Both the position numbers and the translations under genes were made by a program. A stretch of DNA of 64,000 bases from Legionella qingyii (GTDB lineage Bacteria; Pseudomonadota; Gammaproteobacteria; Legionellales; Legionellaceae), in the NCBI RefSeq assembly GCF_003184185.1, contig NZ_QHJG01000009.1, forward strand, positions 84,179-148,178. Direction: 5' to 3'. The stretch's first letter is position 1. Every line of letters starts with the position of its first letter. Under the pieces are notes generated by a model. The model ran no database searches. It was not told the DNA's origin and worked only from the letters and a program-made list of their open reading frames with translations. This document shows, in pieces, positions 1-64,000 of the stretch.

Positions 1-530
1 TTTCTTTGTAAGTAGTAGACTCGAAGCTAAAATGAACCGAATACAGGTACATTATTTCGTTCTTTTACTCGTGGATAACAAACGAGTAGTGAATTCGGTC
101 TTTAAAGAAACAACACTTTTACGGTACGTATGGTCATCGTGTAATAGGGACCTTTATTTCGGTCGTCGGCTAGACGTTATAGTATAACAAGACTTTTTAA
201 TAAAAGACCAAGTTAACATGGGTTTTTACTTGTTCGCCAAGAATCTTGTAGGTACCCTACACATAAAAATCCTTAATTAAATTCATGCCAAAAATTTCAT
301 AGACCGTTACAAAATTCTGATTGGTCAGAAAAACATATGAGTAGGTTAAGGAAAACTCATCCATCAAAAGGTATTTTGTTATTTATCCGTTGGAGAAGTT
401 TGCATCGTATAAGACGGTTTAGTAGTTAACTCATCGGAGACATTAAGTTTGGGAAGGGACGATCAGGTTGACATGTTTAACGACTAACTGGACGTTGTTG
501 AGGCCGATTTGGCGGCGAAAATTGTGAGTA
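1..530 (-). CDS. prpC: 2-methylcitrate synthase, partial (3' end outside window)
   Basis: Condenses propionyl-CoA with oxaloacetate to 2-methylcitrate, the entry step of the methylcitrate cycle, in the cytoplasm. About 176 codons are present and the rest lies beyond position 1. The N-terminus MSVKSGGLAGVVAGQSA is typical of PrpC. Around residues 85-103 it carries IPKNTHPMDVLRTACSFLG, where HPMDVLRT is the family signature distinguishing it from plain citrate synthase. Near the edge is LHGHKPSKIEAQMMNVS, part of the active-site region. The ATG at 530 overlaps the prpB stop by 11 bases, so the two genes are translationally coupled. A GltA-type citrate synthase is less likely because of the prpB neighbour. 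Confidence 0.93.
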
Positions 531-1404
531 ACAGAAGGAGGTAGTTAACCAGATCAAAAACAAGCATAAGTATTATTGGTTCATGAAGTATATCAAGGAG
601 AGCTCAGACGTAACATAGCTCGTATCTGAAAACGCAAGGTAGGTCTTCTTAGCGTGCTATCCATAAATCGCGACGAACACTGTACCGAGATTTACGTGAA
701 TTCCCCATGTTTTAATTACTATGTGGATGGACAAATTCCAGAAGAACTAATTTATTTCCTCAAAAGGGTTTGAGCCATTATAAGCGGTTTTGCCCATGCC
801 CTTGACGGACTCATTTTCAAACTATCAGAAGATTTGCACAGTAACGGAGTCCTTTATAGTATAGTCGGGGATTAAGTTGTGTTTCATTACGAGCAAGTTA
901 TCGGCGTAAGTATGGGAGTTGTCGTATCCGTAGTCAAGAACGGTATTAATGTTTTAGTCCTAGAACCGCGCGTAGTTGCCGACTAAATTAAGCTAGTGGG
1001 TAAAGAAAGTCTCTGTGTTACCGAAATAACCCAGATACGGGTGTAGCAAAACGGTTGTGAACTAGAAGTTACACTTACCGCCGCTGCGGACAAAAGAGGT
1101 ACTCGAAATGGCAAGACCGTTATAATTTGCGTACGGGGGTAGGTCACAGGTGTAGCTGCTCGTCACCATTTCCTGTGCGAAGCCATTAAGCTGCACGTAG
1201 GAGTTCTTGGACTCTATTTAACCAGTACGGTTCCAGTCCATACGGCATTCTACGTAAACGTTGCGGTCGAGGACTTTCTATATAACGGAATCGAGGTCGT
1301 CTAACACGCTCGTATCGTCTTATTCGTAAATACCATGGGTTATGCCCATTCCCAAATAAAAGAAACTGACAGACAAACTTCCGAAAAGGGTACCTTGAAC
1401 GGTA
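520..1404 (-). CDS. prpB: Methylisocitrate lyase
   Basis: Splits 2-methylisocitrate into pyruvate and succinate in propionate catabolism. It has 294 residues, the normal family length. The ATG at 1404 follows an AAGGAG-like ribosome site. The N-terminus begins MASSMGKAFKQTVKEN and leads into PLPVLGTINAY. The C-terminal third reads GADMIFPEAMTRLEDYQTF and later SAFRAMSQAALNTYRAI, both standard for the PEP mutase/isocitrate lyase superfamily. It is the first gene of a prpB-prpC pair with overlapping ends. A sigma-70-like promoter lies at 1451-1478. No prpR-type regulator gene is adjacent inside the window. Confidence 0.93.
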
Positions 1405-1450
1405 ATCGACAGTGAGGAACTAGCATTACATTTGGATAGGTCGACCTTTT

Positions 1451-1478
1451 TATTATACCTTGAGCTCGGAAAGCAGTT
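1451..1478 (-). promoter_or_regulatory. Promoter of prpBC
   Basis: A -35 box TTGACG (1478-1473) and a -10 box TATTAT (1456-1451) are separated by 16 bases. The start codon of prpB lies about 47 bases downstream with a good ribosome site between. The only gene upstream, mnmC, ends at 1543, so this is the obvious place for a separate transcript start. Confidence 0.6.
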
Positions 1479-1542
1479 TCGTAGCTATCAAGCAAAGTAG
1501 GGTCGATGTTCCTATTATAATACGAGATTACTCTTATGGTAG

Positions 1543-3552
1543 AGTTAGCTAAAATTAGAGTGGGGATTAATATAAAAATGCATTCTTTGCACGTCCGCTA
1601 TTTCGTATAACGTTCAAAGACCCATTTGTTGGATAAAGCAATAATTAATGTCTACGTTCGGTAAGGCGTGTATTTCCTTAACAACAGTCCGGAGCTCTTG
1701 GTTTAGGTCGTGTTCGTATTTCTGGTCCTATTATTCCTGGACGAACCCGATAGGTTGCAAAACGTAATCAAAGGTTAGCTCGTTTAACGACATCTTTAAC
1801 AAGCCGTAGTCGTTAAAATGGTTGATTTCCTTCTATTAGCCCTCAACTACGAGACTGAGGTCGGGTTACTAACAAATGCCAAGGTCTGGTGTTTTGGAGT
1901 CCACGATTAACAAATTCAAATCGATTTAATGAAACTAGTAGGACACCAAACTAAACCCTCAGGCGACTAAAATTGAGTATCCATCGTGGCTCGTCCACAT
2001 ATGGAACATAACGACCTTCGTGTACTGGTAGCGGTGTTTCTCCGTAAAAATTCGTTCGTGAAACGAGACAACTCCTTTAAGGACAGTAAACGGGTGCATA
2101 GCCAAATTGACCGTTTATGAGACAAAGAAATTTTCTCGACTAAAACACTGGTAAGCGGTTTTACTCGTGAAGACGAAGATTTAGTAAGTGTTTGGTAGCA
2201 AATAGTTTTAAGTTAACCGAATGTCTTCATAGTCATTCGTTCCTTTATGGAAGACGTAAGTGATTTATGAATGTATTAAGGCCTCTTAATTAGGTAGGAC
2301 TATTTCCCTATACATTAGGCCCAAACAGATTTCTATCAGGACAGTTGAGACTACGGGCGAGACGTAGATGCTCTCTAGGGTTGAGCCCCATTACTCATTC
2401 GGTCCTTGCATTCGACCTGACTCGCCGAAAAAGAAAGAGTCTCATACGTTCATTATTACTCGGTAAGTCAAGTGGTTAGACACAAACTAAATTTTGTGTA
2501 ACTATGCAAGCACGTCGCATATTTTTGCGCCAATTGTATTTAACTCAATTTCCTCTAGCCATCCGTCTATCAAATCCTTTATTTTGACGAACGACTAAAC
2601 GGCTGGGGGGCGATGGCTGAACTGGGTAAAGTAGTTATTAACAATGCAAGGTGGGAGAGAATAATTCACGTACTCGACATTTTGTTGGTCGATTTGGCCG
2701 TGGCTGTTATTAGCGACTAAACGACTTTATGAAAAGTCCGAAGGGGTGTACGGTTCCACGCACAGCAAAGCGCAATAAAACATAGCCACAAAAGCATTTT
2801 GCTCGTGTTTAGTATACTGCAAAACCGGGTTTAGGACATGCAAAAAGATGTAGTTTAGGTAAGACCGAATTAGGACGAAATTGTCTCGGACGCCGCCATA
2901 TCCAACGATTTCACCATAAAAGAAATCTATTGTAGCGATAATGCAATTAGTTTCGTAGTCTGGTGTATGAAAATAAAAATCGACCCCGTTTCGGTAGATC
3001 TTTGGTACGTAGTTATTTTCGGCAAGATTCAAGGAAAAGATCGCATCTAAGCGGTGTTTAATCATCAACAAGTATTGTAAGATCCCGTAGCGGATTGTAA
3101 TTCCAGTCACAATGAGACGGTAATGTTTTTCTGTTTACTACTATAGGTCCTCAGTTCTGACCTATCGAACAATATTCGACGTCCCGTATGAAAAGGTTAA
3201 CACCGGTCCTCCGTTCTGAAAAAGAATTTAGTCGTTCTCTATTTCCTACAAAAAGTGTACTTTATTTTACGTTGACCGACCTGAACCCACGTATAACGAG
3301 GGTATTTGAGGTCGAATGCTCTTTTAAGTTTGGTTAAGGTTTCGGGCAAAGACGTTAGCATTTGGAAACTCCAAATAGTAGTCTTTTACTAACGGTCGCC
3401 AATTAATTTAGTAAAGGTAGTTGTTTATGTACTTCCCGAACTAAATAAGGCGGAAGTCTTCTTACCATTTACAGTAGTATAGCACAGCTCTTTCCGTCTC
3501 ATAGTACGGTTAGGTGGAGACGGAATAAATATCCATGTTTTTTTAATGAGTG
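1543..3552 (-). CDS. mnmC: Bifunctional tRNA wobble-uridine enzyme (methyltransferase plus FAD oxidoreductase)
   Basis: Completes 5-methylaminomethyl-2-thiouridine at the wobble position of tRNAs: the FAD domain removes the carboxymethyl group and the methyltransferase adds methyl. It has 669 residues, the usual full length. The N-terminal methyltransferase part starts MSNFFVPINKAEVDWHD and includes FTIAETGFGIGLNFL, a SAM-binding glycine loop near residues 65-80. The C-terminus reads GFGSRGLTTIPLCAEWLAS and then SPARFLRKNIIRGE, typical of the FAD domain end. The start is inferred as GTG at 3552, overlapping the transporter stop by 8 bases; no better start is in frame. Confidence 0.9.
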
Positions 3553-5071
3553 TATGTTGATGAGCTAAGCATCGGTAGGGAAACCGAAGAAAATTAAGTC
3601 AACCGAAAAAAAGGACTTAATTTAGGGAATTGAATCCGTGATCCTATTTTTCATGTTAACTTCTTGGTTAACGTTTATTAGGATTGTAATTTTTATGTAC
3701 CGATATTGGTGATAATCAATGATTTCCACTTTGTGATAGAACGGGAAGTTAGTAGTTTAAACTTGATATCGATCTATTTCAACGTGGTTGGGGTCTTAAT
3801 TCGTAGGTGTAAGGGTAGTAGTGTGGGACATTACAACATCCTCGGTTTATAGGATAGTATCGTATTGGTTAACCTCTATAATTTTCGAGTGGTTATGAGA
3901 CGTTTTGTATTGAGTTCTATTAGGTCGACCCTAAGTGATCAGGAAGTATTAACCGTATTCGTTATGGTTATCCGTTATAATGTTTTCGCTATGGTTATTC
4001 GTCGTTACTGTTACGTTTGACCCAACCTTATAATTAAACTTGGGGTAAAAATGCGTAAAATACGTTGTTATGTGGATTGTTACCTGGAGGTTATTGTTAA
4101 CGCTGACATAAATATAAAACCTTGGTAACACCACCTTATTAGGTTGAACGTATGAGTGCGACTTGTAATACTAGTTATTTTTTACATTCGGGGTACCCAC
4201 GATAAACCATGTCGTAGGTTTTTTGTCAGGGATGTTGGTATTTGTGACGTTTACGATGATAAAATAGAAATCGGAGAAAACAACCAACAAAAGAACGGTC
4301 TATATTTTATTGAGGCTCGTAATGTTACGGACAATAGTTTTGATTAAAAAATCGGGTCAGTCGTATAACCTCGTAAACTGGATTTTTCTTTCCTTCTTGA
4401 TTTTAGTCCTACGTTGGATTGTCTTGTCGAGAAAAGACTCTTTGGAATAGAAAAAATCTCTTTTAACATAGAAATAGACTATTAACGACGGTTGTTATAT
4501 TTGTTTACTAATTCCGTTAGTTTAAGGGATTTGATGATTCGTTTTTTTCAGCGAGTATCAAGACTCAGTTGACTTTATCAGGTGAGTTTGATTTTGGTTG
4601 TTTTTTTGGCTATAAGTATGGACGTATTAAGTACTCTTTACGACAAAGGGCAGCTCATAGAAGACCTCTCTTTGTAACTCAATTGTATGTCAAGTGCGTA
4701 CAATGTAAATTTGGTCTCGGCCAATTCTTTCGACGGTTTGGTATTATCTCTTTACTTTATAGCGGCTTACTGTTGTCCTGCGTCGGTTATTAAACGCGAT
4801 GGTAAGGGCGTGTTTTGTTGCGTGCTAATCTCTCGTTTGCGGGTGGGGTTTTTGGAGGTTCATTTACGTTGGGTATTAATTTACGCTATTTTTGTGGGTA
4901 CTATGACAACCGCCACGATTAAACCTCAGGATTAAATGGGAAGTATATGTTTTGTTCACATCTCATGTTTTGCGATTTTGAATTTCATCTTTGTTAAACT
5001 TATTTTTTTTCTCCTTACTAAGGAACCCCGTAACTGAATTATTTAAGGAAAAATAAACAGTAATAGCTGTA
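3545..5071 (-). CDS. Proton-dependent peptide transporter, POT/PTR family
   Basis: Inner-membrane symporter that probably imports di- and tripeptides with protons. It has 508 residues, the normal length for this 12- to 14-helix family. The ATG at 5071 follows AAGGAAGG; the early sequence MSIMTNKKEFIKSMPQGIIP leads straight into the first helix, which ends LVLYMKGKLGLQ. Near the C-terminus, QSIGELLISPIGYAMIGYLA is the conserved family motif in a late helix, followed by LQGVMMGMWMLNSGVG. It overlaps mnmC by 8 bases. Peptides are inferred from the family; the exact substrate cannot be read from sequence. Confidence 0.88.
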
Positions 5072-5236
5072 TACTGGAAGGAACAAATAAGTTCTAGCAG
5101 AAACTTATACTGTACACCTTTTTAGTGACAGATCCATAAAATTATTTATATAAAATTTTTATATAATAAAGTTATCCAATAATACGACGTAATGTTGTTT
5201 TAGGCAAATAACTCTCTATTTATTTGAAGAAATTTT

Positions 5237-5262
5237 GACCCACGGCGATAACGAAGTGGGTC
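5237..5262 (-). terminator. Hairpin after hemL, likely intrinsic terminator (repeat-family member)
   Basis: CTGGGTG (5262-5256) pairs with CACCCAG (5243-5237), followed directly by TTTT. It sits 34 bases after the hemL stop and before the transporter gene. The inner sequence matches a GC-rich hairpin family found at several other intergenic sites in this window. Confidence 0.7.
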
Positions 5263-5295
5263 GGATTTTTTCGTAGACCAGCTGTGGAATGTTAC

Positions 5296-6582
5296 GATAG
5301 AAAAATTAACTAATTCTTGAAGGAGCCGCCGGTAAACCCAAAATCACTGAAGTAAAAGTGGTACCCGTGACCTATGTTTAGGTCGAAGTATGTATCTCCC
5401 TCGTTTTATTTATGGAAAGAGATTGTAAGGTACTATCTTGAAAAATTTATTTTGGAGCAGTCTCCGTCGTTGTAGTCGTATTAGGCGTTACGCAAAAAAA
5501 AGACATTTTGTTTTTGGTTTGTACGGTGGATTACTTCGTCATTTTTTACCTTATAAATTGTAAAGTCGTTGTCTTCGATTTCGGACTCAATTCGAAACTC
5601 AACAAAGTGAATTGACACGTTTTTTTGGACCAAAAAGTTAAAGTCTATTTCAACGTTCTGGACGACGGTATCGATTACCCAATGGTCTTTCTCATGGACG
5701 AACTATGTGACCAGGGAGTCCCCGATTTTTCCTGTATTAAAGACGGAATGGTGGATTTCGTGGGTGTCCGTAAGGGGGAGGTTACTGAAATGGTTCTCAT
5801 CATTATAGTCCCCACTATGGTTTATGGGGGACCCGAGGTCAATTGGGATGAGATTTTGGTCAGTAATGAAGTAGTTTATAGTTATTTCGTAATATAGCTA
5901 GCGTATTAACTGCATTAGGTAAGTTCTTGAGAACAAGTCCATTTTGTTTGGGGTACAAAGGTCGTTGACCAAGGTTATAATGACGACGTTATAGTAGTCC
6001 TTTAAAAAGTTTATTAACACGGCAAACAAGGTCCAATAATTTCAAACGTCAATTTCATACAAGACATTGCGAAACACCCTAAGGGCCGCATCTACCCTAC
6101 GGATTACATTCTTCTGGTCTTGGACGAAACTGATCGTTTGATAGTGATACAGGTACTATTGTTGGTAATTTAAATTATTTAAATAAAAAAAACCAATGTG
6201 GTGCGCGGTTAGATTACCGTCAGTAGCAACGGAGTCATGGTCTTAATTGGTAAGCATGAAAAAGTTAGCTCCCTTAATTGCTCTAATAAAAACGTCGGTT
6301 AACATGAAGTTCGAGACATCCGCGCGGTTTTGAGTACGGTGATACGTCGTGTAATAAATGACGAAGTTAATGTCGACCTACTGTTACGGGTTCTTAATTA
6401 CCGGGGGTGCTGGGTTGTATTAGTTACATGAGTAATAATAGTTGCAGTTGTTCTATTCGTGGAAATGGAACAAATTTTTTTTAGCCTAGCGGTGGCTGTG
6501 GAAATTTACGGGAATGACCACTTAACTGTGGAGGTCCTTATTCGCGAACTCGGACTACTTTATTTAGACAACTCGCTCAGTA
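5296..6582 (-). CDS. hemL: Glutamate-1-semialdehyde 2,1-aminomutase
   Basis: PLP enzyme of the C5 heme pathway that turns glutamate-1-semialdehyde into 5-aminolevulinate. It has 428 residues, matching the family. The start MTRSTDLFHQAQALIPGG is the standard HemL N-terminus, with the GG before the NSPVR region. The C-terminal part contains FFTEKKRIADYADV-like sequence, then FYHGMLEKGIYFAPS and FVSSAHGENEVTK, all canonical. The ATG at 6582 follows a GGAG site. It is transcribed divergently from rubredoxin. A second heme gene, hemJ, lies nearby on the same strand. Confidence 0.92.
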
Positions 6583-6705
6583 TTTTTAGAGGTATTAAAA
6601 CGTCATATTATAATGTCTCTTATAATTTTTAACCGTTTTTTTCGTCAAATAGAAATGTAGCTGCAGGTGTTATCGATTTAATGCGATAAAATTTACTCAT
6701 AATAG

Positions 6706-10720: not shown

Positions 10721-12079
10721 TACTACGTTTAGTGTAAAGAACCACGGTGACCTTGACATTGTCCAAGGTTTATAGAAGACAGCAAATTATTTTTCTTATA
10801 AAACCATCTAACACCCGAAAAAGTTCCTGGATTTCTCGATGCTAATTCTTTAACCTTAGGTGAGGGTAAGTCAGGACTTGAGAACCTACGGTAATAAGAG
10901 TGGGTGCGAGTATAACTGGTGAGCCCTATAAATGGTGACAATCAATTCTTACCTAAATTATTTGGTTATATAACGTGAATACCCTGATTTCTAAATACAC
11001 TGTATAATAATGGACTGTCACGTGTGAATGTTCTTCTCCTACGGTCTGTACGATTACTTGTAGTAATAAGGTTTGTAGCGGGACGAGAAGGAGATATATG
11101 GCGTCGACTACGTCTTTTACGTAATGTTGATAAATTCGGGGTTCGAATGTTATTCTATTAATTGGATGTACTGTTATAGTCAAAAGTTAATTAAGGTCGC
11201 CCTGTATAATATCCAAGCAGGAAACATTCCGATGTCGTAGTTCTATGTAGTGAAGAAAAATCACCTCTAAACCCATCTTACGTACTAGGGCAATACTTTT
11301 TTGGGTGACTTTAATTCGTTTGACTAATAGAACACTAACTCAGTTGGATACCTCTGGCAGAAGTACTTTTTCTTGGTGGATTCCACTGAAATTTTTTATA
11401 ATAGTTATTTTGGTAAGTAGCTCCTCCAAGTCATTAATAAGGGCGTAAACGACAACCCGCAAGTGTTTATTATGACGTGATAGAAAGACTTAATTTTTTT
11501 CTTTTACGTTAAGGTCTACATGGATATATAGAGCTGTCAGGATACCGGTAGTTACGCTGTGTTTAGAATATATTTGTGTATCTTCTAGAAGCGAACTGAG
11601 GTTGGGTTACAGTCCTAGAGACACTACATCGGTGTATGCACGTTCTACATCCTCTTAGCTAACTCGAACTGAACCTATTTAGTGGGTTTTATTAAGAAAG
11701 ACGTTCACCGTACCGGAGACCACCTGCTTAGCATATAGTGTAGTTTCGCATGCGTAGTCTAGGTGCATTATGGAATAATAAATGACCTAAAGTCAGACTC
11801 CTCTGAGACCCGCGTCTCTATTAGAGTCCATTTTTCAAATAACTTTGAGTACCGTTTTAATAGGGATATTTACGAGTTCAACTTAGTTACGTGTCGTGGA
11901 GTCGTGTACGTCTAATACCGCTCTATGAACCAACCGAATTAGTCAAAGTTGTTGGTGGATTTTTCTGAAAATATTGCGTACCCCTCGGGCTCCGGAGGAA
12001 TAGAAATTTTAGATTTTAACTTTGTGTCGAGCCAACCGTTACGCTATAAGGACTTATACCTGTTTTTCTTGTTAATACT
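10721..12079 (+). CDS. Metallo-beta-lactamase fold, beta-CASP RNase-like hydrolase
   Basis: Probable zinc-dependent RNA-processing nuclease. It has 452 residues, the length of the bacterial/archaeal CPSF-like MBL plus beta-CASP proteins. It starts MMQITFLGATGTVTGSKYLL. The zinc motif HAHIDHSGYLPLL lies near residue 62, with LVDCGLFQGPKELR before it. The C-terminal region ends QFQQPPKKTFITHGEPEA, where the late histidine belongs to the metal site. RNA as substrate is inferred from the family. Its stop overlaps the next gene by 4 bases (ATGA), indicating one operon with the phosphorylase. Confidence 0.85.
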
Positions 12080-13587
12080 CGTTTTTCGTGTGATGGAACT
12101 GCGACTTTATAAACCCCTAATTATGGGTATTCCTTGGACAGTAAATGTACGCACTACTAACAATATATACATTTAGTCTTCCTAAGTGACGAGTCCGAGC
12201 ACAATCTCATTATGATTTACTTGCAAGATAACAACGGTGTCACTTATGTCAACTTAGGTTAAATAATTCTGTATTACTTCGTCCAGAAAGTTAAATACGA
12301 ACCCTTGATGAGCGACGTTTTCTTCCGCTATTTTAACGTAATAGAGTAGGTGTTGTTGACCTGAGAGATTCAATGTAAGCGAGTTTCTAAATACCTTTAC
12401 TCGAGAGACGTCTTGTTTGTTGGGTATATTAGTTACTATAGCACAGTCCTGTTGAGAGACTGTAATTATAACGGTACATAGAACGGCGGTCACCGCCTCT
12501 ATCCGAAAGTTTATTTCTCTAATAACTAGATTGAGCTCGCTACTAAGTAAGACCAGTCGTTAATAGTACCCTGTACGGAAAGTAACAACTGTTCGTAAGA
12601 CACCCGCCAAATGGTCCTTTAGCATGCTGGGGATAACACCAAAGTTAACAACGACGAAAGCCGAATCAATAAGGATTTTGTAGAAGAGCACGGTAGTGTA
12701 GTGGACGTCCTTGTCGTCTATGCTACCTTCATAAGTGATTGCAGCTGGACTTGTAATTACTTTACTTTTTGCAACAACTCGTTCTTTTACCGACGGAACA
12801 AACCCCCCCGAGATACCGAAATTCGGGTCGTCTACTAAATGAGTAGGCTTAACTCTCTTGACGTTTATAGCTATCACTTCCTGTTTACCAGCGAAGTTAA
12901 AATAGTTTTTTTTAACGGCGTCCAAGATTAGTAGAACAGTAACTATACGGATATCCCTGATGTCGATTTCAAGCAAGTTAACTTGCGCGGTTAAGCGATT
13001 TTTTTAATAATTTTAAACAACGGCTTCTCAAACTATAGTCTTGTTTTCATTATAATTCACTACCAAGTGTCGGTCATCCGGCACCTTATCCTGGACAAGA
13101 ACTCCGTGAACTACATAATAGTCATGACTTAACGCTATTTGTACGCGGTGTTCTAGATGCACTCGTACGAAATCATAATCGCCGAGTATAGTATCTTAAA
13201 AGGGGAGTCCAAAATGGCCCTGTTCCTAACCCATAACGTTGAGTGGAAGATTTGTCACCGTTCCGTAATCGATTTAAACTTCGTTAAACATCCCGAGTTC
13301 CGCCGGACGCACTCTAATTTTTTCGAGGTTAACAAGTATGACATCTTAGTTTTGAGAGCCCATAGTATTAATTGTAACTATTAGCTGTGTAAAGAGTTAA
13401 TCGATTTAACCGTCCCCGTGGTGCGAGTTTTCGACGTCCGCAACTCAATAATTGAGGGGACGTAAGTTATCATTTTTTTAGACTTGGAGAAAAATCTTAG
13501 ATACGTCTGTGTGCTCCTCTCGAGTTAATACGAGAACTAAAGAATTTCGTCCCAGTACTTCATAAAGTTTAACTCCGGTCGCATACT
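12076..13587 (+). CDS. Thymidine phosphorylase, type 2 (AMP-phosphorylase-like)
   Basis: Phosphorolyses a nucleoside (thymidine, or possibly AMP as in the archaeal relatives) to base and pentose-1-phosphate. It has 503 residues; the extra N-terminal domain separates it from classic DeoA (about 440). Seen near the start: LKYLGINTHKEPVIYMRDDC and YICKSEGFTAQARVRV, then NTVESNLLRHNEAGLSIYA. The C-terminus reads YADTRGELNYALDFLKQGHE. Coupled by 4-base overlaps to both neighbours: the MBL nuclease upstream and a PRPP synthetase downstream. The arrangement suggests nucleotide salvage, but the substrate is not proven. Confidence 0.85.
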
Positions 13588-14486
13588 TTTTTAGTGGGTA
13601 GTAAAAACGTGATAAACCTGTGCTACTCGACTGTAGATGTTAAGTAGTATTTACAGTAATACTCGATCCTTTTTAGTCAAAGGTAGTTAAAGGACTATTT
13701 CTTTGAGAACACTTTTAACTTAGGCTACATCGTTTCGCGCAACAATATAAACAACGGTTAAATCATGTAGGATTAGGCTTTTGAGAAGGAGAAGATAAAC
13801 GACGTGTTTGTCGATTCAGAAATCCGCGTAGCTTTTATCATAATTATTGAGGTATAGAATGTATATACGCAGTTCTGTTTCATAAAGTTGGTCCGGTTCC
13901 CTAATGTAGGGATATGAAACGCCTTAACTAAAGGAGAATAAAACTAATGAATTATTGTCAACTGGGTGTAGATGTAGCGACCGGTCTAAATTTACGCTAA
14001 ATATTTTATGGTTGATTTCATGAAGTACGTTGCATATTCTAAAGTCGAACCTATAGAGTCGTACATAGCTTAGGTTAAGAATAACCTGGACTAAGACTTT
14101 CACGTGTTACCCAACTTAGTTAACGTGTTTTCAGAAGGCATGGTAAATGATAAAATCTTTTTTCTTCTAGTTCGCTATGTGTTCATCTTTAAAGATAGGG
14201 ACCTTATTTCGTTATGGTCTTGCGTTGCGGTTAAGAATAACTACTATATTAGAGCTGCCCTTACTGATACTACCTTTGTAATCGGGTAAATTCACGTAAT
14301 TTATACTTTGGCCGACAAACGTAACCACAAGTACGGCAAAAACGTCTTTTACGTATAGTTTTCGAAAATGACAGGGCACGTTGTTTCTAATAATGGACGT
14401 TATGTTAAGGCGTATGTAGTTTATTATAGCTACAGTCAGTCCTATAATAGATAAAAAACGAATTAACCTTATGGTATTTACTTATT
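13584..14486 (+). CDS. Ribose-phosphate pyrophosphokinase family protein
   Basis: Predicted to make or use PRPP from ribose-5-phosphate and ATP. It has 300 residues, close to short bacterial/archaeal Prs forms. Seen: ISFHQFPDKETLVKI near residue 31, LLFAAQTAKSLGASK, YMRQDKVFQPGQGITS near residue 98 (family RQDR loop, with K for R), and the PRPP-binding ILIDDIISTGMTMMET near residue 218. It is unlike the long housekeeping Prs, so it is probably a second, specialised copy. It overlaps the phosphorylase by 4 bases and the ATP-cone gene by 8. Confidence 0.82.
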
Positions 14487-15327: not shown

Positions 15328-15357
15328 AGCGATTGAATCCCCATCATATTGAACTAC

Positions 15358-15570
15358 TCCATTAAACGGCATTGGGTCCTTTAGATGCTATTCTTTTTGG
15401 TCCGAGGTGAAACGAAGGGCGGTTCGATACTCGGCTTAGAAGATGTGTAGCGTCTTTATTGGTCGGGTCTAGATAAGGCTGCAAGGCGCCGAACAGGTAC
15501 CCTAAATCCGCCAGACGGGATTTTGTGATGCGGGGTGATTGTTTAGCGGGTCGCATCCGTTTCTACACTA
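15358..15570 (+). ncRNA. Candidate structured RNA, possibly 6S RNA
   Basis: Non-coding stretch between two converging genes. TATAAC at 15346-15351 could be a -10 box. The transcript would contain GAGCCGAAT followed about 40 bases later by TTCCGCGGCTTGT and then CCCTAAAACACTACG, which resemble the GAGCCGAUA, UCCGCGGUUGGU and CCUUAAAACUGCG segments of E. coli 6S RNA in the same order. TTTGCC near the 5' end can pair with GGCAAA near the 3' end. Base-pairing beyond that was not convincing by eye, so this remains a suggestion. A promoterless 3' UTR structure is the alternative. Confidence 0.35.
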
Positions 15571-15616
15571 ATTCTTTGTCTCCGATGCTTCGTTCTTTGT
15601 TGTGTTTTTATATGAG

Positions 15617-17020: not shown

Positions 17021-17023
17021 AAT

Positions 17024-18178: not shown

Positions 18179-18301
18179 CTTTTAGTTTGGAGTTAAAAAT
18201 GTTTTGTATAGTTATTTGTGTGAGTAATACAAAATCGGGACTATTTCTCTTGTAGTTTTACCACATACAAAAATACTTGGAGAATTCGACTATTGTTTTA
18301 C

Positions 18302-18976: not shown

Positions 18977-18991
18977 TTGTGAGAGGACGTG

Positions 18992-43266: not shown

Positions 43267-43323
43267 AATTAAATTGCTTCTTTTTTATTGTTGCCGAAAC
43301 TAATCTCAGGCAACTGTAAAGTA
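43267..43323 (-). CDS. Possible 18-residue leader peptide ORF
   Basis: ATG at 43323 after a strong AGAGGA site, encoding MKCQRTLIKAVVIFSSLN, ending 11 bases before paralogue A starts. The ORF spans a hairpin with CAACGG/CCGTTG arms and a T-run. A strong ribosome site on a tiny ORF overlapping a terminator is an attenuator-like layout; coincidence is possible. Confidence 0.35.
43281..43314 (-). terminator. Intrinsic terminator or attenuator before paralogue A
   Basis: CAACGG (43314-43309) and CCGTTG (43295-43290) with a 13-base loop, then TTATTTTTTC. It lies about 250 bases after the stop of paralogue B and 25 bases before the ATG of paralogue A. Confidence 0.55.
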
Positions 43324-43567
43324 AATTAAGGAGAATAAAGGGCAAAAAATACGCGCCCGTTATATCTCTGTGTGATTCTACATGGATAAAAATTACACCA
43401 AAATGACCTAAGGCGCGTATTTCGCGTCTTGCATCCGATTACCTCTTTAACAGTTGTCTGGGATCATTTATTAGTCCCGCAAAATATAGTATTAACTTTC
43501 CTGATAATTTCTACTACATTGGTTAACTTTTTTTTGTAATTTTTATTTTATTTAAAGTAGAGGGTTT

Positions 43568-46774: not shown

Positions 46775-49700
46775 AATACGAAGAACGAGTTGATTGAGTA
46801 TGCTAACGTTGCATCAAACGCAGTCTAGTTCGTTGAGAGACTAACGTTGTTTCTTGTAGCATATCAAATCTTGGCTCGAACGAAAGTCTAGACGATTTTA
46901 TTTCGCGGTTGCGACATAATTACGCGCTACTCTGAGAGGGGTTCTTCGTTCTGCACGGACGTTTAGCCCCAAGAGTGGCAGTATCAATTATTCAGGTCGT
47001 CACTCAACTGCGACAACGGTTAGGTTTAGTAGAGCATTACGAAGAGACCTGTTCCTAAGGGTTACTAAAAGTGAGCCTACGTATTATTAAACAAAAGATT
47101 AGGTACGTTCTAGGTTCTTGAGCGGATGAGGTTTTATTTAAAGTCGTTGGACTCGCTGAAAGTATAAAGAGAATAGTCGCTAAAGATATTACAGCCAACG
47201 TCGTTTATTCGGAGCCCAATGTCAGTTTAGTACACGATTACAACCACCTTATGGAAGTAATTGTTCGGGAACTATGAGGAGTAATATAAAATGGGCAGCA
47301 AGAAGTAAATTCTAACGACCATACCTGTAGAAGTTGAGTTGTTAAGGAACGCTCATCTCAAAATGTTGGAGCCTTTATAGTTGTCAAGATGCGACTGATG
47401 CGTTCTTGGTTGCACATTATGCAGCGCGGTTAGATCGTATTTCGTAGTAGTAAAGATGAACGAAAAATCGTGACTAGAAGCACGGGTTAAGGAGTTAAAC
47501 GAAGGTTTGTCTAAGATTTAATTCATGTCTCGCTCATTACTGCATTCGAGAATGTTAGCGACTTTGTCCTCGTGGTCAAAGTAGGACATTAGACATTTAC
47601 ATTCATTTCGGGTAGAGTAAATGATATTATAACGAATTGAACCAACGATAATAAAGAGAAGAATCACCTACTCTAACGTAAACGAACGATTTAGCGAGAA
47701 CGTTTCCGAACCCTTTACTTGATTAATTTTTAACTCAGTATATGGGAAGAAGTCCTTGTGGTCTCCGGTCTTAAACGAGAAATTCTTAACAAAATGACAT
47801 TGTGTAATTATGCCGTTATGAACCTGCGTAGTCCGGAAATGGGTAATTAAACGCAAGGTATTATTAGAATAGCAGACCGTTCATAAGGTCTAATGCTAGT
47901 TAAAAAGGCCAAGCAAGATTAAGTGACTATATCGCTGAAACATCTAGGTTACGGACTTCTCCGACACTACGTCTATTTGATTAACGAGCACAAACATTCT
48001 TTAACAGTGCTTCGTGGTTAAATGAATGAAGTAGTCAGTAAAGTTAATTGTTAAGTAATGCAACAAAACCTCAATTTAGTGGTTGACGTTGTTATGACAA
48101 TTCTTCTTAGAATTATAAATGAAGAAATAGTCTTGTTAATTGTGGTGGTCTTAATAGTTATTTCAGCCATATTTGGTAAGGCGGTAAATTACTCATAAGT
48201 TGTGCACGGTTAACCCAATTAGGATTCAATGGCGGGAGTGGGTGTTGAAACGTTGCATTAACAAACCGTAACTGAGATCAACATAGTAACCAAGCCAGTG
48301 GTTGTAATCGCAAACTAAGTCATGACCGGAATTGTATACATGGTTAAGGACGCGAGGTTTCATTTAGTTGAAACCGAAAATTTTAGCGAAATTAATTGAG
48401 TAACCCAAGTTAAAGTAAGACAAATTAAGGCTTTTGTCGAACGTAAAGGAATGACTGTCCCTACCTAAACCGTAATGCTAACTTATGTGGTGGCGGGAAC
48501 CTTTATTCAAAAAATAGTATTAGTCAGGTTAAACTTGCACCGTTTACCTTATTTGCGAGTGCGAGAAACTTTGACCGAAGACGTAGTCCTAGTCCTAGCT
48601 GTTTTTATACTTATACCAATTTCCGGGGTTGGTTGAACTACACAAAACTATTGTTGTATGGTAATGGTTTTTGTAGAGGTCGGTATAGCGGTTATGGGTG
48701 CTGTCATTTTAGTAATAAAAGTTACAGATATAAGTTAAGTATTTTCACAGCAAAGTGACTAAGGGTACGTGGAAACCGGCATTAGGGGTAAAAGAATACC
48801 AGTATTGGCTAACTCGGTGGACTACGTTTTCGTAGAGGGTTGGTTTTCGGTATGAGATTTCTTTATCGTAATCGTTATAGTCTCTTGCAACGCCATGGAA
48901 ATAGACGGCGTTGTTGTTCCATCCCTAGTAGGAGTAGTATCGTCTGCTGTAATAAACCAAATTGATGGAATGGAAGTTGTATTAACAGACATTATAGCTC
49001 TTCTGGTGCTTATTTATTAACTATTGTCGGCTAGGGAAGTCGGTAATAAAGAAGAGCGCATGGCAAATGTCCATTTTTAAACCCATGTTTTGGTGGGAAC
49101 CGCGGTGATCCTTGTTAATGACTCAAGAACTGAACGACGCGAAAGTAGTTTGGTTCATAAAGACATGCCTTTAGGAGAGAAGCTAGTCTGGTTGCATTAG
49201 GAGGCGCTCGTTGGAACGGTGTTGCGTTCACTTGGGGAAGTTTAGAACCTCTTATTTGTTTCTAAAGTTTGTATCCTACACCAAAACCGTGTGGTCCTTA
49301 TTAGAACGACAAATTAAAATCTCTTTATATTCCAAATACCACAGGTAGAACTAAATGAACTATTTTTAACCAAGCATTACATCGTGATTAGCGTACCTAC
49401 ATGACAGACTAATAAAATAGAAGTAGTTCTAAGCTATGTCATAGCTCTAGCAAATTATAAAGTTATCTGTTTAGTCACTTTGCTAGAAGAGATAACCCTA
49501 GTAGTCGTCCTAATGTCGCTTAAAGTTTATTAAAGTGATTGAAAAATCGTTATCACTGTAATAATAAATTGCGGTAAAGGTATATCAGAACCGATTTTCA
49601 TTATGGTTAAACGAACTTTATAAACCGCATCCACGCGTTATGTCGATGAAGTGCGGTTAATTCAGGGCGGCGATTTTGGTTGACTAATTTCGGTAGTAAA

Positions 49701-51652
49701 AGTCGAACTGGTTTGGTCTGAAACCGTTTTCGTAAGACCTTATTAAGAAAATAGAGTAGGTCTAGTTTGAGTTAGCCAAATAATATAACGTACCGTTTTA
49801 GCAATTAGGTTCGTTGAAATGGTAGAAGTTTAAAATTACTTATTCCTGCGAGTGAATAACGTGCATTTGGATCAAAAAGATTATAACCATTTTGTAGTCT
49901 ATTTCCATAGCATAATAGTACGACTATTTGAAAATTAGATTTTGATAAAAGACTGAGTAGGTTACCAAATATTTTCAATTATGGGTTGCCTACGAGTCTA
50001 CACTCATTGAGTTATACGAATTATAGTATTTGACGACAAGAACGTCTTTTGTATAGTGTTATCCGTTAGCCTTTACGTAAAAATATTGCACGTTTTTCCC
50101 ATAACCGAACAAGGAGAGGTATACAGAGTAAATTTACTCTAACGTTTAGCAGACAGGTACTGGCGGGACGAAGCTAATCAAAAGCAAGTTACAGAAAATT
50201 TAGTATAAGCTCACCATATAAGCCTAATTAAAATTATTATTTTACATGAGCACGATTTTGTCTGAGCCATTTAACTCAACTTATACATCAGAGTTATCTT
50301 AATTTCGAAAGTAGTTCTTACAAAAAGTAGCGGTAAGAATTAAGCCATAATTAAGATAGAAATCCATGTATATGGTTCGTTCTTTGTTTAGCTGCTATTT
50401 GCAGTTGAGCGCGCTTATCAGCATATGCGAAAGACAGAACGTATATTTTATATGGGTAACGTTAAAGGTCTTCGAGAAGAAGACAAGGAACTTAGTTTAG
50501 TAGGGCACCATCGCAAAGATCTTATAAGTTGTTTTAAAATGGGCGTACTGACGCACCTAAATTAAACCTTAAAAGGTATTACTCGCGATGGAATGCAGAG
50601 TTTTTACCTTAAACAAAACCCAATCATACTATCCGTCGTCTTCATATTTCAGGTTATTAAGAAGCAAGGGGTTAATGGACAGGAACCCGTAATTTAGCAA
50701 ATTAAGGATATATTAGCCATATGCGTAGTGCCACCTGTGAACGATCCCATAAACAAAAGCTTCATTGATTATACGCACCTCTATTCCATTTAAGCGCACG
50801 AAGACCACAGTAACGTCTTTATGAAGCACAGTAACTAAATCATTGTGAAAGTGCGTTTTCAGGGTTAGGTCATAAACCTTGGCGAACATTTTAACAAAGA
50901 AATGGGAAAAGACGATTAAGTATTAGAGAGTAAGGATTTTTCCATTTTACTACTAGAAGTTAGGTTACATTTTTACGAAATCAAAGAAGATGAAGTAGAT
51001 TTAGCTCATGTCTTCTATGAAATAGTTAAAGACTATAACGAAGAGCTTGACTTCGCGCGTAAAAAAGGGTTAGGAGTTTTTGATGAGCCAACAGAAGTTC
51101 TCGCGCGCGCGTAGGGAATACGTTAAGAAGTTCGTGAAATCCCAGTCAAACAGCTAGTTAAAGTTCTTTATAACCGCGGAGTACTTAATGCAGAAAGAGT
51201 AGATTATAAACTCGTGCTCCATTTTAAAGTGTCTGAGCTAAGTAAAATAGAGAAAATTGCGCTTATGGGGGGTATACTTAGCAATCTACTCTCCTATCGG
51301 GGTAAGATACCTAATGGTTTGCTTAACTCAGTTGGTCTTTTCCGTACAGTAGTGTTTATTGGAGTTAATGTCATACTCATCAAACGGTAGGTACTGCAAG
51401 TATTAGACCTAATATCTAAGATTAAAAACAGAGTACTCCTCGAGCAAGTGATTAATTTCTGGTTTTTAAATGATGTCGTGGTATTTCTAGTAGTTATCAG
51501 GTACTTGAGTCCAGAAGGTAACGATGTCATGGTATGTTGACAAACCGTTTAAGCCGCGTTTTGAGTTAAACTAGTGGTGGGTATCTCGAAGATTAAAATA
51601 GATGTTACCGAAGTTAATTATGTAGAAATGGAAGAAGTTTAAATATTCTGTA
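46775..51652 (-). CDS. NAD-specific glutamate dehydrogenase, large (about 180 kDa) type
   Basis: Oxidatively deaminates glutamate to 2-oxoglutarate. It has 1625 residues, as expected for the GdhB-type enzyme. N-terminus MSYKFEEGKDVLIEAIVDKI, then EFCAEFAKQLYGTVAMEDLS. The catalytic region shows EGGNLGLTQLARVEYSLNG near 48240-48190 and TDFIDNSGGVNCSDKE just after. The C-terminus ends FAVALRELLD-like FVAIRELLDLTQTT. Start ATG at 51652 with GAGG. Start and stop are in one frame (4878 bases); I spot-checked the middle, not every codon. Amino-acid catabolism fits the amino-acid-eating lifestyle of Legionella. Confidence 0.9.
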
Positions 51653-51708
51653 ACAACAATATGGAGCAGCTAAAACGGAGTCGGGATGTCGCTCTTAATA
51701 ACAAATTT

Positions 51709-51766
51709 ATTTTTATTGGTCGGTGAGTGTGGTTCGGTTATTTATTTGACCAAATTACTCTCACCG
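51709..51766 (-). terminator. Intrinsic terminator after the aldehyde dehydrogenase
   Basis: GCCACTC (51766-51760) and GAGTGGC (51727-51721) form the outer stem, with further pairing inside (AACCAG with CTTGGT), followed by TGGTTATTTTT. It lies 57 bases after the gene's stop. Confidence 0.7.
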
Positions 51767-51822
51767 GTTTTTTAGTACAACTTCGGTAAATGCGAAACTC
51801 ATTTACTGACGTTTGAAATTAC

Positions 51823-53196
51823 AATACTTAGTGGCTACCGATACCAAAATCACAATTGTTTGAGATTTTATGGAAGAAAACTATTGAGTGCCGGTTTGGG
51901 ACTAAGAAAATAAGGTGGTTTACCATTAGACCCTAGTCTTCGGTGTTTTCGTAATTGCTTTGTGCGCGGTCGAAGATAAAGTATTCATCGATATACAAGA
52001 GGGGAGAGGTTTAGCGCTCATTTGTGGCGCCGTGGATTTGGTATAACCGAAACTAACCGTATTCGTTACGGAAGAAAAAGTAATAACTGACATTATTATC
52101 GTTATTGTCCAGGTTTATTGAGAAGTAGTTTTCGACCGTACGGTCCACAGTGTACTCAATTGTTTCAACCACCTATTATTTTTGGAAAAGGTAGCCCTTA
52201 ATATGGTGGATCGTTATTAAATCGTGGAACAAAATCACTAAAAAGATGAACTTATACGTTCAAAAGCGCGTTCAGACTTGCGCGATTACCCGGTTCGACC
52301 CAAAGCCCTAATTCACCTAGGGGGTAAAATTTACGTCTTTGAACGAGTTAATAAAAAACATAGTTGAGAAGAAGTTAACTAAAATTTTGTTACTACGCGA
52401 ACCGTCGTTATGTTTGAACCGGACTTAATAACTCAGAACTTAATTGTTATGTTGCACGTCGGTCTAGATTTAGTCGTAGAAGTTCTTGCTCTATTCCTAG
52501 CGAGGGGGGATCGAGATTATGACGAAAGAAATTTTTAAAAGGACGTACTGAACGTTGTCGCGAAGGACGTGCAGGCGAAGGACAGTTTCATTGGCGTTAT
52601 TGACTCCCTACGAGATATTAAGATCGGCGAGGTAGTAATAGCTGTTAATTCACAACCTTTTGTATTAGCCCTTTAGGACGGAGGTCTTTATTGAGAAGAT
52701 AAAATAACGGTCAAGGTCTTCTCTATCCACGTACGAAATTCTGTCGTTGTAACGGTCGGTACTCGCATCCTTGTCGTTTCGCTTTATGGACGGTTTTACC
52801 TTTTAAGGTTCCGTACTACCGTTTTTGGTGGGGTTCACCATTTACTGTATGAAATCTAAAAAAGTATAGGCAAACGTGATGAAACCGTCGTTCCATGAGA
52901 AGACGTACAAGACGTATTACGAGTGTATTGGTCCGTGTAAATAATTAAAGACGCTATGGACGTCAATAACCGAACGGGTAAAGTAAACTGTAATCTACTC
53001 GGTTAAGTAGACAAAAACTAAAATTGTCAACCCGCTCGGCATCGTAATTTCGAAAAGAAAACGATTTTCTCCAAAAAAAGGTAAGGTCTATACGAAGTAC
53101 GCGAAACAACTCAAAAAGTAATTGAAGAACGAACGAGTTCGTTAATATTCAAAAGTCCTAGACAAGACAACGCCCTAAATGTCAAACTTAATAGTA
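51823..53196 (-). CDS. Aldehyde dehydrogenase, succinate-semialdehyde dehydrogenase-like
   Basis: 457 residues. Starts MIIQTVNPATEQILKTYNC after GGAG. The catalytic cysteine lies in NNSGQVCIAAKRIIVLK near residue 256; DPLNPETQLGPLARSDLREN follows, and the C-terminus has PFGGIKESGFGRELSKEGIL then EFVNTKTIAIG. This pattern is that of the NAD(P)-dependent SSADH (Sad/GabD) group. A role in glutamate/GABA degradation would fit the adjacent glutamate dehydrogenase, but the substrate is inferred. Confidence 0.88.
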
Positions 53197-53411
53197 CTAC
53201 AGAGGTATGTCTTATTTCATATAAATTAATTTCAATGGTTGAGAGGAACGCATGATGAAAACTAATAACTATGATAAAAATATAAAAATCGAAAAGTAAT
53301 TTTCGTTGTATCAAATTTGGTTATACAAATATGTTAATTATTTATAAAGTCTTTAGGTAGAAATTATCGTGTCGAAAATTACTAACAAAAGATAATTGTG
53401 ATCCTAATAAT
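53197..53411. promoter_or_regulatory. Divergent intergenic region aldehyde dehydrogenase / pcs
   Basis: 215 strongly AT-rich bases with no gene. Promoters in both directions are expected; no unambiguous consensus pair was seen. Confidence 0.3.
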
Positions 53412-54176
53412 TACTTGAATTCATTTGGCTTTAAGGTGGGTAATGTCATGCATCGCCGAACCAATCACGTAGAGAAATGGCGTTCGCGTCGGACATAACC
53501 ACAAAAAAGTAATCATTTTTACATAGTTGTACTTATGTAAAAACGAAACACCGAGTACGAATAATGACAACAATAACTACGTCACCTACCTTCGGAACGA
53601 GCGAATCAATTATAATTCCTTTAAAATGGGTTTTATCTACCGCGTAACGAACTATTATAGCAACTAATGAATTTAATGCAATATTGAGGTACGAAAAAGA
53701 ACGAACACTTCGGGCCATACGAAGGCGGATGGATAAGTCAAAACAATTAACGCCGCCAAAGTTATTGAAGACGAATAGTTAAAACAGTCAGACTACGTTT
53801 TTGGGGTCTGGTAAAAAAATTTCCTAAAGGTACAATAACCTTGCAATGATAAAATATATACAAATAGAAATTATGATGACGGTGTTGTTTACGGTAATAT
53901 AATTGTTAGGAAAGATATGAATAAAAACATGGACATTTTATGCATATAGGGAGTTCTGAGCTGATAAATTGACTTAGGTCCTATAATTTTCACGAATACG
54001 TACAAACAAGATAATAGATACGATAATCAAGTCAAACAAACGAGTAATCAATAGGCTTATGTTTGTAGTAAAAGGAATGTGAAAGTAATCGAATACAACC
54101 TTACATGTATAAAAATTCAAAAATGTCTTGAATAATAGGATACTAATTTCGATTTTAACGACGCGTTTTTCTTATC
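53412..54176 (+). CDS. pcs: Phosphatidylcholine synthase
   Basis: Integral membrane enzyme that joins CDP-diacylglycerol and choline into phosphatidylcholine. It has 254 residues. The active site reads VDGSLARLVNIKEILPKIDG then ALLDNIVDYLNYV, giving D-G-x2-A-R-x12-G-x3-D-x3-D; the 12-residue spacing is characteristic of Pcs rather than other CDP-alcohol transferases. The N-terminus is MNLSKPKFHPLQYVAAWLVH and about eight helices follow. Pcs is found in bacteria living with eukaryotes, including Legionella, which uses host choline. Confidence 0.93.
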
Positions 54177-54754: not shown

Positions 54755-55270
54755 CACCGATTTTTATGTATATAAAACAACCCTACGTAACCGAGTGAAT
54801 AATATAACTCACCGGAAAACTTCAAAAAGCCTTGAAGTGGAGGAGTAAAAATAAGAGTTGAAATAATAAAGTAACCGCCACAACGGAACGAGTATTGGCG
54901 GTAAGTAAAATTCAACAAAAAAAAATATCGGGATGTTAATTATGAATAACGACCTGTGCGGCGTTAAGATAATCCATCACCGGGAATATGGGTCAAAAAG
55001 AACGGATATAATTACACGACAGTTGAGGAGTGTAAGATAAATTACAAACCGTTTCTTTTATCACACAAAAATTATAACCCTCACAAACCATAACGAAACG
55101 AAAGATACCCAAAACGGATGTTACTATTTACCTATAAAAAAAGTCCCTCGTGTAAATAGCGCTATATACGAATGATATTGCGCATATTTCCTAATATAGG
55201 AAGAATATAAACCCGCAAAAACTTATGTCGCTAACGTAACGAACGAGAAATGGCTTATGAAAAGCATATT
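54755..55270 (+). CDS. Hypothetical multi-helix membrane protein
   Basis: 171 residues, about six predicted helices and almost no soluble part. Starts at GTG 54755 (VAKNTYILLGCIGSLIILSG) and ends WAFLNTAIALLALYRILFV. Helices include LYYFIGGVALLITAIHFKLF and FFIALQLILIAGHAAILL. Gly/Ser/Tyr placement is not that of a known transporter I recognise. It follows the secreted protein by 3 bases. Function unknown. Confidence 0.7.
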
Positions 55271-55348: not shown

Positions 55349-55798
55349 AATGAACCGTCCTTGTTAGAGTTGCACGTTAAACCGTTATTGTAGTGACACT
55401 TGTACATGAAGTTGTTGCTTTAATGGCTAACTTACTTCTCCAGGGAGACCGTAATGTTAAAGTGCGAACTGATATAGCTATGGAAATAGATGGTTTCGTA
55501 GAAATTAAAGTAATTGTGGTTGCCTTGGCATGTTAAACGGAAGCAGTGAGCGGTATCGTAATTATTAATATCATCATAGTAAGTTGAACCGCCGTGCGAC
55601 GAGTCGTTGTCGTTTTCTGACGACCCGAAAAAAGAGTTCGAGTTGCGCCGCGACAAGTTTATTGAGTTATAAAAAACCACATCGTTTTTGGCGAAATAAA
55701 ACACCATAGTTCTTTAATGCTGGTATTGGACTAAAATGTAAATGAGATAGTGGGTCCAATGGATTTAAAGAGTGAAAAAGATTATTCTATTGAAGGTA
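55349..55798 (-). CDS. rplI: 50S ribosomal protein L9
   Basis: 149 residues, full length. Starts MEVILLEKVRNLGNLGDRV, the universal L9 N-terminus, and ends [20 protein letters not shown] then DVIAKLHVEIVPAK. Last gene of the rpsF-rpsR-DUF2232-rplI operon. ATG at 55798, 10 bases after the DUF2232 stop. Confidence 0.97.
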
Positions 55799-55810
55799 GA
55801 ATTATTGGGG

Positions 55811-56671
55811 AATTTAACTGAGCGGCTGGGAACTTCCCTTTATGCTAGATTTTAATTGATTTGATAGATTATTTGGTTCCTACTACATCCATGTATTATG
55901 TTTTCAACCAAAGTGATTATAATTATTGTAGTTATTTTATTTATGGAAGTGAACAGAAAAAACTCTTTTCTATTTTATTTGGTTAGGTTTAGGTCTTCGG
56001 TTTTTTATTGTTTCGTATTAACCTTCGTGTAAGTTTCGGTTTCCCTAGAGTATTTTTCAACGGTTACTTTGAGGGTACTTTTGATTTTTACTTTCAGATG
56101 GTGATGCTTTATTGTAATCGAGTAAGGACTTTGGTGGTCCATTTTTATTAGAACGAACTTAACGAGCGCGCTTGTAGTTCCTTTAACAACGCCTTTGTTA
56201 GTGTGAATTATAGACTTAAGGCTTCTTATTGACGCGATTTTAATGACTCAAATACGGTAATTCTCACCCTAGTTGATTCAGGACCATAACACAGTTTTAA
56301 TTAAATTTGTCGGATTTAACAAGCTGTTATTTTGGTCCCCGATTTTCAACTTACTCATTCGTAGGGTTTTTCCGGTCATATTTTTTGTGAGGGCGCCGGT
56401 GGACGGTAAAAAGTCATAAAGCGTCCGAGTTACGACGTTTCATTGTACCTTCTATTCGCTAATCTCATAATTAGTCACGAGGCCTGTTACCTTAATTGTA
56501 GTAGTTACCTTGTCTTACTTATTGTTCACGTCCGTTATTTTATAGTTTTGGTCTAGCTCGTGGAAAAGAATTCCAGTGATTTGTGTGATTTCGCTGACTT
56601 TCGGTTCTACGTTTCCCATTATGACTTTTTTAACGTCGTTTTTGTTAACTAACGACAAATGAAAGTTCGTA
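55811..56671 (-). CDS. DUF2232-type membrane protein between rpsR and rplI
   Basis: 286 residues, about eight helices. MLESKQQSIVFAAIFQYYPF starts the protein; later LAYLPCYF-like IAYLPCYFAALSLRNTEKWQ and LPGGFRNELMLFRSGRLSF. Membrane proteins of this family sit at exactly this place in the S6/S18/L9 operon of many gamma-proteobacteria. Role unknown; a link to ribosome or membrane biogenesis is only suggested by position. ATG at 56671 after TAAGG. Confidence 0.85.
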
Positions 56672-56719
56672 ATGGAATGTAACAAAATAATATTTTAACG
56701 GACGAGCGTAGTAATAATA

Positions 56720-56947
56720 AATAGACACCGATAGTGTTATACCGTTGTCCGGTTCTTTAGACCGAACGTATTAACGAGATCGATTAACAGAAACTTTTGC
56801 CCAAACTCATGGTCATTATGCTGAACCGTGTTAAAATGGTCAAAGTCTTTATATCAAAAAGTCATTTAACTATAGAAATATTAGTTAAAGTAACGGCGGA
56901 AGTCGTGACTTTGCCGTGTAAAAAAAAGATGCTTTTATTCGACTGTA
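56720..56947 (-). CDS. rpsR: 30S ribosomal protein S18
   Basis: 75 residues. MSAYFRRKKMCRFSAEGGNE begins it; ITGTQTRFQRQLARAIMQAR and FLGLLPYCDSHR end it, standard S18. ATG at 56947 with a strong GAGGAG site, 13 bases after the rpsF stop. Confidence 0.97.
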
Positions 56948-56960
56948 TTATTTTGAGGAG

Positions 56961-57299
56961 AATTCGTCTAGACCAAAGAAAAAGAAAGAAGTAGTTTTGA
57001 CTAAGTCAGCACTAGCGAACAAAAACTGCTCACTAATTTAAAGACTATTAACGTAGTAATTTAAATTTACGTAAAAATTAAAGAAGGTCTCGAAGTTCCG
57101 ATGTGAGTTACAAGTATTCTTACATTACACGAAATACATGTAGTGTTTAACCTATTCGATTGACCGCTGCTGGGTTTAGAAGAAATGCCACCTACTGGGG
57201 TAACACGAACGAATACTAGGGAAGTATCGCGAGATGGTAACGACCGTGAACAAGCGAAACTAGGCCCACGTGTTCTTTGTATTAAAGTATTACAGAGTA
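56961..57299 (-). CDS. rpsF: 30S ribosomal protein S6
   Basis: 112 residues. [20 protein letters not shown] is the canonical S6 start. It ends VLMKKEKETRSA. ATG at 57299 with AAGGAG. First gene of the ribosomal operon; a promoter sits about 75 bases upstream at 57372-57400. Confidence 0.96.
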
Positions 57300-63214: not shown

Positions 63215-63585
63215 GCTAGGAGGAATATAATTTTAACCCAGCGTCAGGACGTTACTACAAAACAATTTTCTTGTCAATGAGGTTTCGAGTTATTTATTGC
63301 TGTAGGGAGAACATTCATTGTTTTTTCTGGATTTAGAAAATTGAAGTGCGGTAATCAGCAGTGACTTTAACCGAAACTAAATACTTACTATTTCTAATCG
63401 TCATTAGTATTTTTATACCTTTAAAATATTTCGTAATATATTTTTTTATTAATAGGATTGAAGAACTTTTTAACTCATGATAGGTCAACACGTTCATTGA
63501 GTGGGAAATAACTAATTAATAACGAGTGATACTTCGTATATTTCTGAAATCGTGCGAAATTTTAAATTAAATATTTCTTCTCTAT
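63215..63585. other. Gene-free stretch between fadI and the tRNA operon
   Basis: About 370 AT-rich bases with no convincing gene. It must hold the fadI promoter; TTATATAATGC-like sequence near 63430-63440 on the right-to-left reading is a candidate -10 region. The fadI leader would then be over 200 bases. Confidence 0.4.
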
Positions 63586-63613
63586 AACTGCCGAAGTTTT
63601 ATGGACTATATGA
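63586..63613 (+). promoter_or_regulatory. Promoter of the tRNA-Ser/tRNA-Arg operon
   Basis: TTGACG (63586-63591) and TATACT (63608-63613) with a 16-base spacer, 15 bases before the tRNA-Ser 5' end. A GC-rich CTCCGC follows the -10 box, resembling the discriminator of stringently controlled stable-RNA promoters. Confidence 0.75.
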
Positions 63614-63628
63614 GGCGTTGGTAACTAA

Positions 63629-63718
63629 CCTCTCTACCGGCTCACCAGCTTCCGCGAGGGGACGATTCCCTCATACCCTCTTTAGGGTAGCTCCCAAGCT
63701 TAGGGAGAGAGAGGCGGT
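63629..63718 (+). tRNA. tRNA-Ser (GCU anticodon)
   Basis: 90 bases including encoded CCA. The acceptor arm GGAGAGA pairs with TCTCTCC. It has a D-loop GCCGAGTGGTCGAAGGC, an anticodon GCT at 63663-63665, a long variable arm TATGGGAGAAATCCCAT expected for class II tRNAs, and GGTTCGAATCC as T-arm. Confidence 0.97.
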
Positions 63719-63724
63719 CAGTTG

Positions 63725-63801
63725 CGCGGGCATCGAGTCAACCTATCTCATAGACCGATGCTTGGTCCCCCAGCCTCCAAGCTTAGGAAGGCCCGCGCGG
63801 T
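63725..63801 (+). tRNA. tRNA-Arg (ACG anticodon)
   Basis: 77 bases including encoded CCA. The acceptor arm GCGCCCG pairs with CGGGCGC; D-arm TAGCTCAGTTGGATAGAG; anticodon ACG at 63759-63761 (read as ICG after deamination); T-arm GGAGGTTCGAATCCTTCC. It follows tRNA-Ser by 6 bases, so they share one transcript. Confidence 0.97.
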
Positions 63802-63900
63802 AAAAAGTATTTTAGTTGTTTTTCGTTTCTTAGTGAGGCTCTAAATCGGTTCCGTAGATTACAGTAACCGGGCCTTCACAAGCTTGGCTTTCTCAACCTA

Positions 63901-63992
63901 GAAGGGGTAAAGGCCCCCGTGATTAGTTATTGTGTTTTGAACCCGAGAAGGGGTTTAGTCCCCCGTGATTAGTTCTTGTGTTTTGAAATTGG
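63901..63992. repeat. 46-base tandem direct repeat (two copies)
   Basis: Copies at 63901-63946 and 63947-63992 agree at about 38 of 46 positions. On the left-to-right complement each has CTTCCCC, a short variable segment, GGGGGCACTAATCAA and AACACAAAACTT, so each can fold a CCCC/GGGG stem. It may continue beyond the window. It lies 100 bases downstream of tRNA-Arg with no clear gene between. Confidence 0.7.
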
Positions 63993-64000
63993 GAATTGGA

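Follow-up and report, generated by a model that had tools for sequence, protein, structure and literature searches.

Cells invert DNA only as a double strand, and the outcome of such an inversion reads as the reverse complement. Sequences that are reversed without being complemented are known as decoys in homology-search benchmarks (Glidden-Handgis and Wheeler, 2024, PMC11099658). The window analysed here, i.e. the whole stretch of 64,000 nucleotides, is with a probability of about 0.99 a piece of a chromosome closely related to that of Fluoribacter (Legionella) gormanii, the letters of which were reversed without complementing, most likely as a purposeful negative control or through a slip in file handling. 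Since base order cannot be reversed in a cell without exchanging the strands, the reversal would have occurred in a text file, such that a natural chromosome stretch had its letter order reversed during text handling and thereby became the window. No proteins or tRNAs are therefore expected from the printed text. Coordinates given below are window positions, and the corresponding position in the reversed text is 64001 minus the window position.

Open frames and RNA genes in the two readings

With ATG, GTG and TTG counted as start codons, the given text holds 16 open reading frames (ORFs) of at least 100 amino acids (aa), the longest of 138 aa, and not a single frame of 150 codons or more in the whole window. 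Neither a tRNA nor a tmRNA was detected across its length, no Rfam family reached the gathering score, and a Pfam search (E 0.01) with the ten longest of the 16 ORFs returned no match. After reversal without complementing, the same letters contain 61 ORFs at or above the 100-aa threshold; 49 remain with a minimum of 150 aa, 43 with 200 aa and 28 with 300 aa, and the longest reaches 1,625 aa. The 61 ORFs together cover 88.6% of the bases. In this reading ARAGORN finds two tRNAs, Arg-ACG and Ser-GCT, and 27 of the 57 ATG-started frames with 100 aa or more are preceded by a Shine-Dalgarno-like word, compared with one of six in the given text. The preliminary description, which had reported no frame beyond about 138 codons in the written text and two tRNAs after reversal, with almost none expected before, is borne out by these counts; it had also named equal or better performance of gene and tRNA finders on the unreversed text as the result that would speak against it, and what was found there is no tRNA and no ORF of at least 150 aa, versus two and 49 after reversal.

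The 16 ORFs of the given text exceed the one to five ORFs of at least 100 aa seen in five mononucleotide shuffles (longest 106–147 aa). This modest excess of short frames is explained by the behavior of reversed coding DNA, which shows 12–21 such ORFs likewise: in the matching 64 kb of L. gormanii their count falls from 64 in the forward direction to 12 (longest 146 aa) after reversal, and in six 64-kb joins of other Legionella-group loci it falls from 58–71 to 15–21 (longest 140–184 aa). Each reversed join contains zero to four ORFs of at least 150 aa, versus none in the given window. The six joins, drawn from 384,000 of the 535,084 bases of loci L002–L029, share a common tolB neighborhood and are thus not independent of one another.

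Complementing the window without reversing it produces ORF statistics identical to those of reversal without complementing, because both operations result in the same pair of strands. The operation could therefore have been a complement without reversal, the same artefact starting from the other strand, and the sequence alone permits no counter-argument to this version, which is compatible with the explanation preferred here and which we consider possible, though the less probable of the two. The earlier claim of reversal without complement accordingly holds in that natural DNA is presented backwards, as the collinear match to L. gormanii at about 92% identity attests (see below), and needs refining in that a complement without reversal is indistinguishable from it.

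Match to L. gormanii and genes recovered after reversal

The TolB frame of the reversed text shares 98% protein identity with that of F. (L.) gormanii ATCC 33342, in line with the earlier expectation that reversed ORFs would match Legionellales at high identity. A TolB-based search returned 78 tolB loci, which served as BLASTN targets (E 1e-5); the reversed window matches 48 of the 78, the given window none. Aligned to 68 kb of contig NZ_FTNL01000004.1 of L. gormanii (L001; G001:C14), the reversed window falls into four collinear blocks that comprise 63,121 of the 64,000 bases at 91.8–92.4% identity, so that a collinear, high-identity match to a chromosome of the L. gormanii group runs along the window, whereas the given text has no match to the same 68 kb at E 1e-3. 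The lack of long frames, tRNAs and family matches in the given text would also be expected of unusual natural DNA, such as a non-coding element, DNA with an unusual code or that of unknown life, yet 63,121 collinear bases at about 92% identity to Legionella after reversal lie beyond chance and refute this idea, leaving it a negligible probability. The idea that the given text uses an unusual genetic code had been weighed and was dropped once the reversed text matched L. gormanii collinearly.

Frames were picked greedily by length, with an overlap of less than 30% allowed and a minimum of 60 aa, giving 67 ORFs in the reversed text. A counterpart in L. gormanii was found for 62 of these, including all 58 that reach 100 aa, and the five without a match are 60–78 aa long; among the 66 frames picked identically from the given text, none matches an L. 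gormanii protein. About 61 protein genes, plus two tRNAs, are thus supported, rather than 62, because an 84-aa frame across the tRNA pair is probably no gene. The figure of about 66 genes in the preliminary description compares with the 67 ORFs picked here. The 84-aa reversed frame (63548–63802) is open in L. gormanii too, and its conservation would follow from the tRNAs beneath it.

The features of the window are as follows:

1–64000, whole window: natural Legionella-type chromosome text with reversed letter order
520–6669, reversed: hemL, oligopeptide symporter, mnmC, prpB
10721–14486, reversed, opposite strand: ribose-phosphate diphosphokinase, thymidine/AMP phosphorylase-type and beta-CASP nuclease-like genes, with 4-base overlaps
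15617–23505, reversed: ndk, rlmN, pilW, rodZ-like, hisS, a 229-aa protein without family match, bamB, der
31588–34788, reversed, opposite strand: pyruvate dehydrogenase E1 alpha, E1 beta-type and E2-type genes
36721–42443, reversed: ruvB, ybgC-type, tolQ, tolR, tolA, tolB and a 280-aa frame, in this order
46775–51652, reversed: the longest frame (1,625 aa), 98% identical to the L. gormanii frame
53412–54176, reversed, opposite strand: Legionella-type phosphatidylcholine synthase (NF045886 above cut-off on the L. gormanii copy)
55349–57299, reversed: ribosomal proteins S6 and S18, a 300-aa protein without family match, ribosomal protein L9
59884–63214, reversed: acetyl-CoA acyltransferase (439 aa) and FadJ-like fatty acid oxidation subunit (672 aa), with an 8-base overlap
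63629–63718 and 63725–63801, only in the reversed text: tRNA-Ser(GCT) and tRNA-Arg(ACG), a pair found at the matching place in L. gormanii

Gene names derive from NCBIfam scans of the L. gormanii copies (E 1e-5 or E 1e-10, depending on the batch), in which 40 of the 53 scanned frames had at least one family; among the 53, L085:8-1231 represents the truncated end of the 1,625-aa frame, for which NCBIfam gave no match at E 1e-10. Several names lie below the curated NCBIfam cut-off, including FadJ, succinate-semialdehyde dehydrogenase, FadD, MiaE, RodZ and the E1 beta and E2 components of pyruvate dehydrogenase, of which E1 alpha is above the cut-off. Pfam, run on three frames of the reversed text itself, gave the expected domains (FadJ-like, RuvB and aldehyde dehydrogenase), so that for the FadJ-like frame the sub-threshold NCBIfam FadJ models refer to the L. 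gormanii copy and the Pfam domain to the reversed frame. The acyltransferase and the FadJ-like subunit share 99% and 97% aa identity with their L. gormanii counterparts, and the ribosomal protein cluster shares 100% (S6), 100% (S18), 93% (300-aa protein) and 98% (L9). A family search found none for the 280-aa frame after tolB. Further genes named after reversal are pabB, fadD, minC, lpxH and pcnB, and taken together the gene content is that of a routine gammaproteobacterial chromosome.

Two places within this gene set may be described separately. The overlapping three-gene set at 10721–14486 (reversed 49515–53280) encodes an archaeal-type phosphorylase, with TIGR02645 above cut-off, and a beta-CASP nuclease-like protein whose best NCBIfam match is a type VII Cas14 model, at 386 of 800 bits and far under the cut-off. 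Judged by its gene content, the set is possibly an RNA or nucleotide salvage operon; a literature search found no publication on AMP phosphorylase in Legionella. At 54755–55270, a 171-aa reversed frame matches an 89-aa L. gormanii frame over 89 aa only, and the L. gormanii copy may have been disrupted or may use another start.

When a 700-base probe from the reversed text was compared with 45 genomes of the genus, 43 matched, the best being L. gormanii at 90%, followed by the next at 83%. Species are usually delimited at a genome-wide nucleotide identity of about 95% or more, and the regional identity to L. gormanii (91.8–92.4%, for this window only) falls below this value. Judged on this region, the source of the reversed text is a close relative of L. 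gormanii, probably a different species or a distant strain. That it was an undescribed sister species, absent among the genomes searched, appears rather unlikely.

Extent of the reversal and the unaligned stretches

The four L. gormanii blocks leave 879 bases uncovered, made up of three inner stretches (157, 388 and 275 bases) plus 59 end bases, as might be seen if only part of the window were reversed, e.g. in a mis-assembled or chimaeric record. However, every one of the 64 one-kb bins favors the reversed reading on two counts: this reading has the greater maximum stop-to-stop frame length in 64 of 64 bins, and a 6-mer model prefers it in 64 of 64 (the model was trained on 28 Legionella-group loci, which share homology with part of the window). 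Neither measure revealed a switch of direction inside the window. Moreover, each of the three inner stretches is short and flanked by collinear blocks, the 59 end bases can be aligned at 93% after reversal, and none of the four unaligned stretches matched in the given orientation, with the 388-base one matching in neither. A partial reversal is thus highly improbable, and reversal of the whole window is the reading retained here.

The 388-base stretch (35214–35601) lacks an L. gormanii counterpart and gave no match in either reading, nor any in the fetched loci, while the 275-base stretch (15330–15604), likewise without an L. gormanii counterpart, has weak matches in L005, L004 and L022. The 157-base stretch (43306–43462; reversed 20539–20695) is a short insertion missing from an otherwise matching L. 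gormanii site. Its termini are imperfect inverted repeats beside a TA, GGGTCTGTTGACA on one side and GAGTCCGTTGACA on the other (read inward), which give it the appearance of a small non-autonomous transposable element. Each of six related genomes searched has zero to two copies of the 13-base end motif, with four of the six containing it; the motif was found in two of 93 loci, with L017 having two facing copies 479 bases apart. A 32–36-base inner piece of the insertion matches L005 as well.

Nature of the artefact and comparison with known systems

The window reads as natural DNA solely after letter reversal, in its ORFs, its tRNAs, its alignment to L. gormanii and its one-kb bins, and the given text shows no homology within the searches performed (78 tolB loci, 68 kb of L. 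gormanii, Pfam with the ten longest ORFs, and Rfam). Positions 1–25000 of the given text also had no match to plasmids and positions 25001–50000 none to phages, both weak evidence from searches run without a reversed positive control. The observation is a property of the text rather than of the organism and implies no new biology. Its value lies in quality control, since any repeat, hairpin or short ORF taken from the window as written would be an artefact or a decoy hit, and in the fact that reversed DNA can be recognised by a reader without tools.

The reversal was probably a deliberate negative control, although the sequence would look alike for intent and for error. In this respect the window differs from the reversed decoys of homology-search benchmarks, which are made on purpose, whereas here the sequence says nothing on intent; it resembles them in being a real sequence written backwards, with composition and repeats kept and homology lost (Glidden-Handgis and Wheeler, 2024, PMC11099658). 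From the chromosome of L. gormanii ATCC 33342 the reversed window differs by about 8% nucleotide divergence and by three short stretches without counterpart, but it is collinear with that chromosome and shares the tRNA pair with it.
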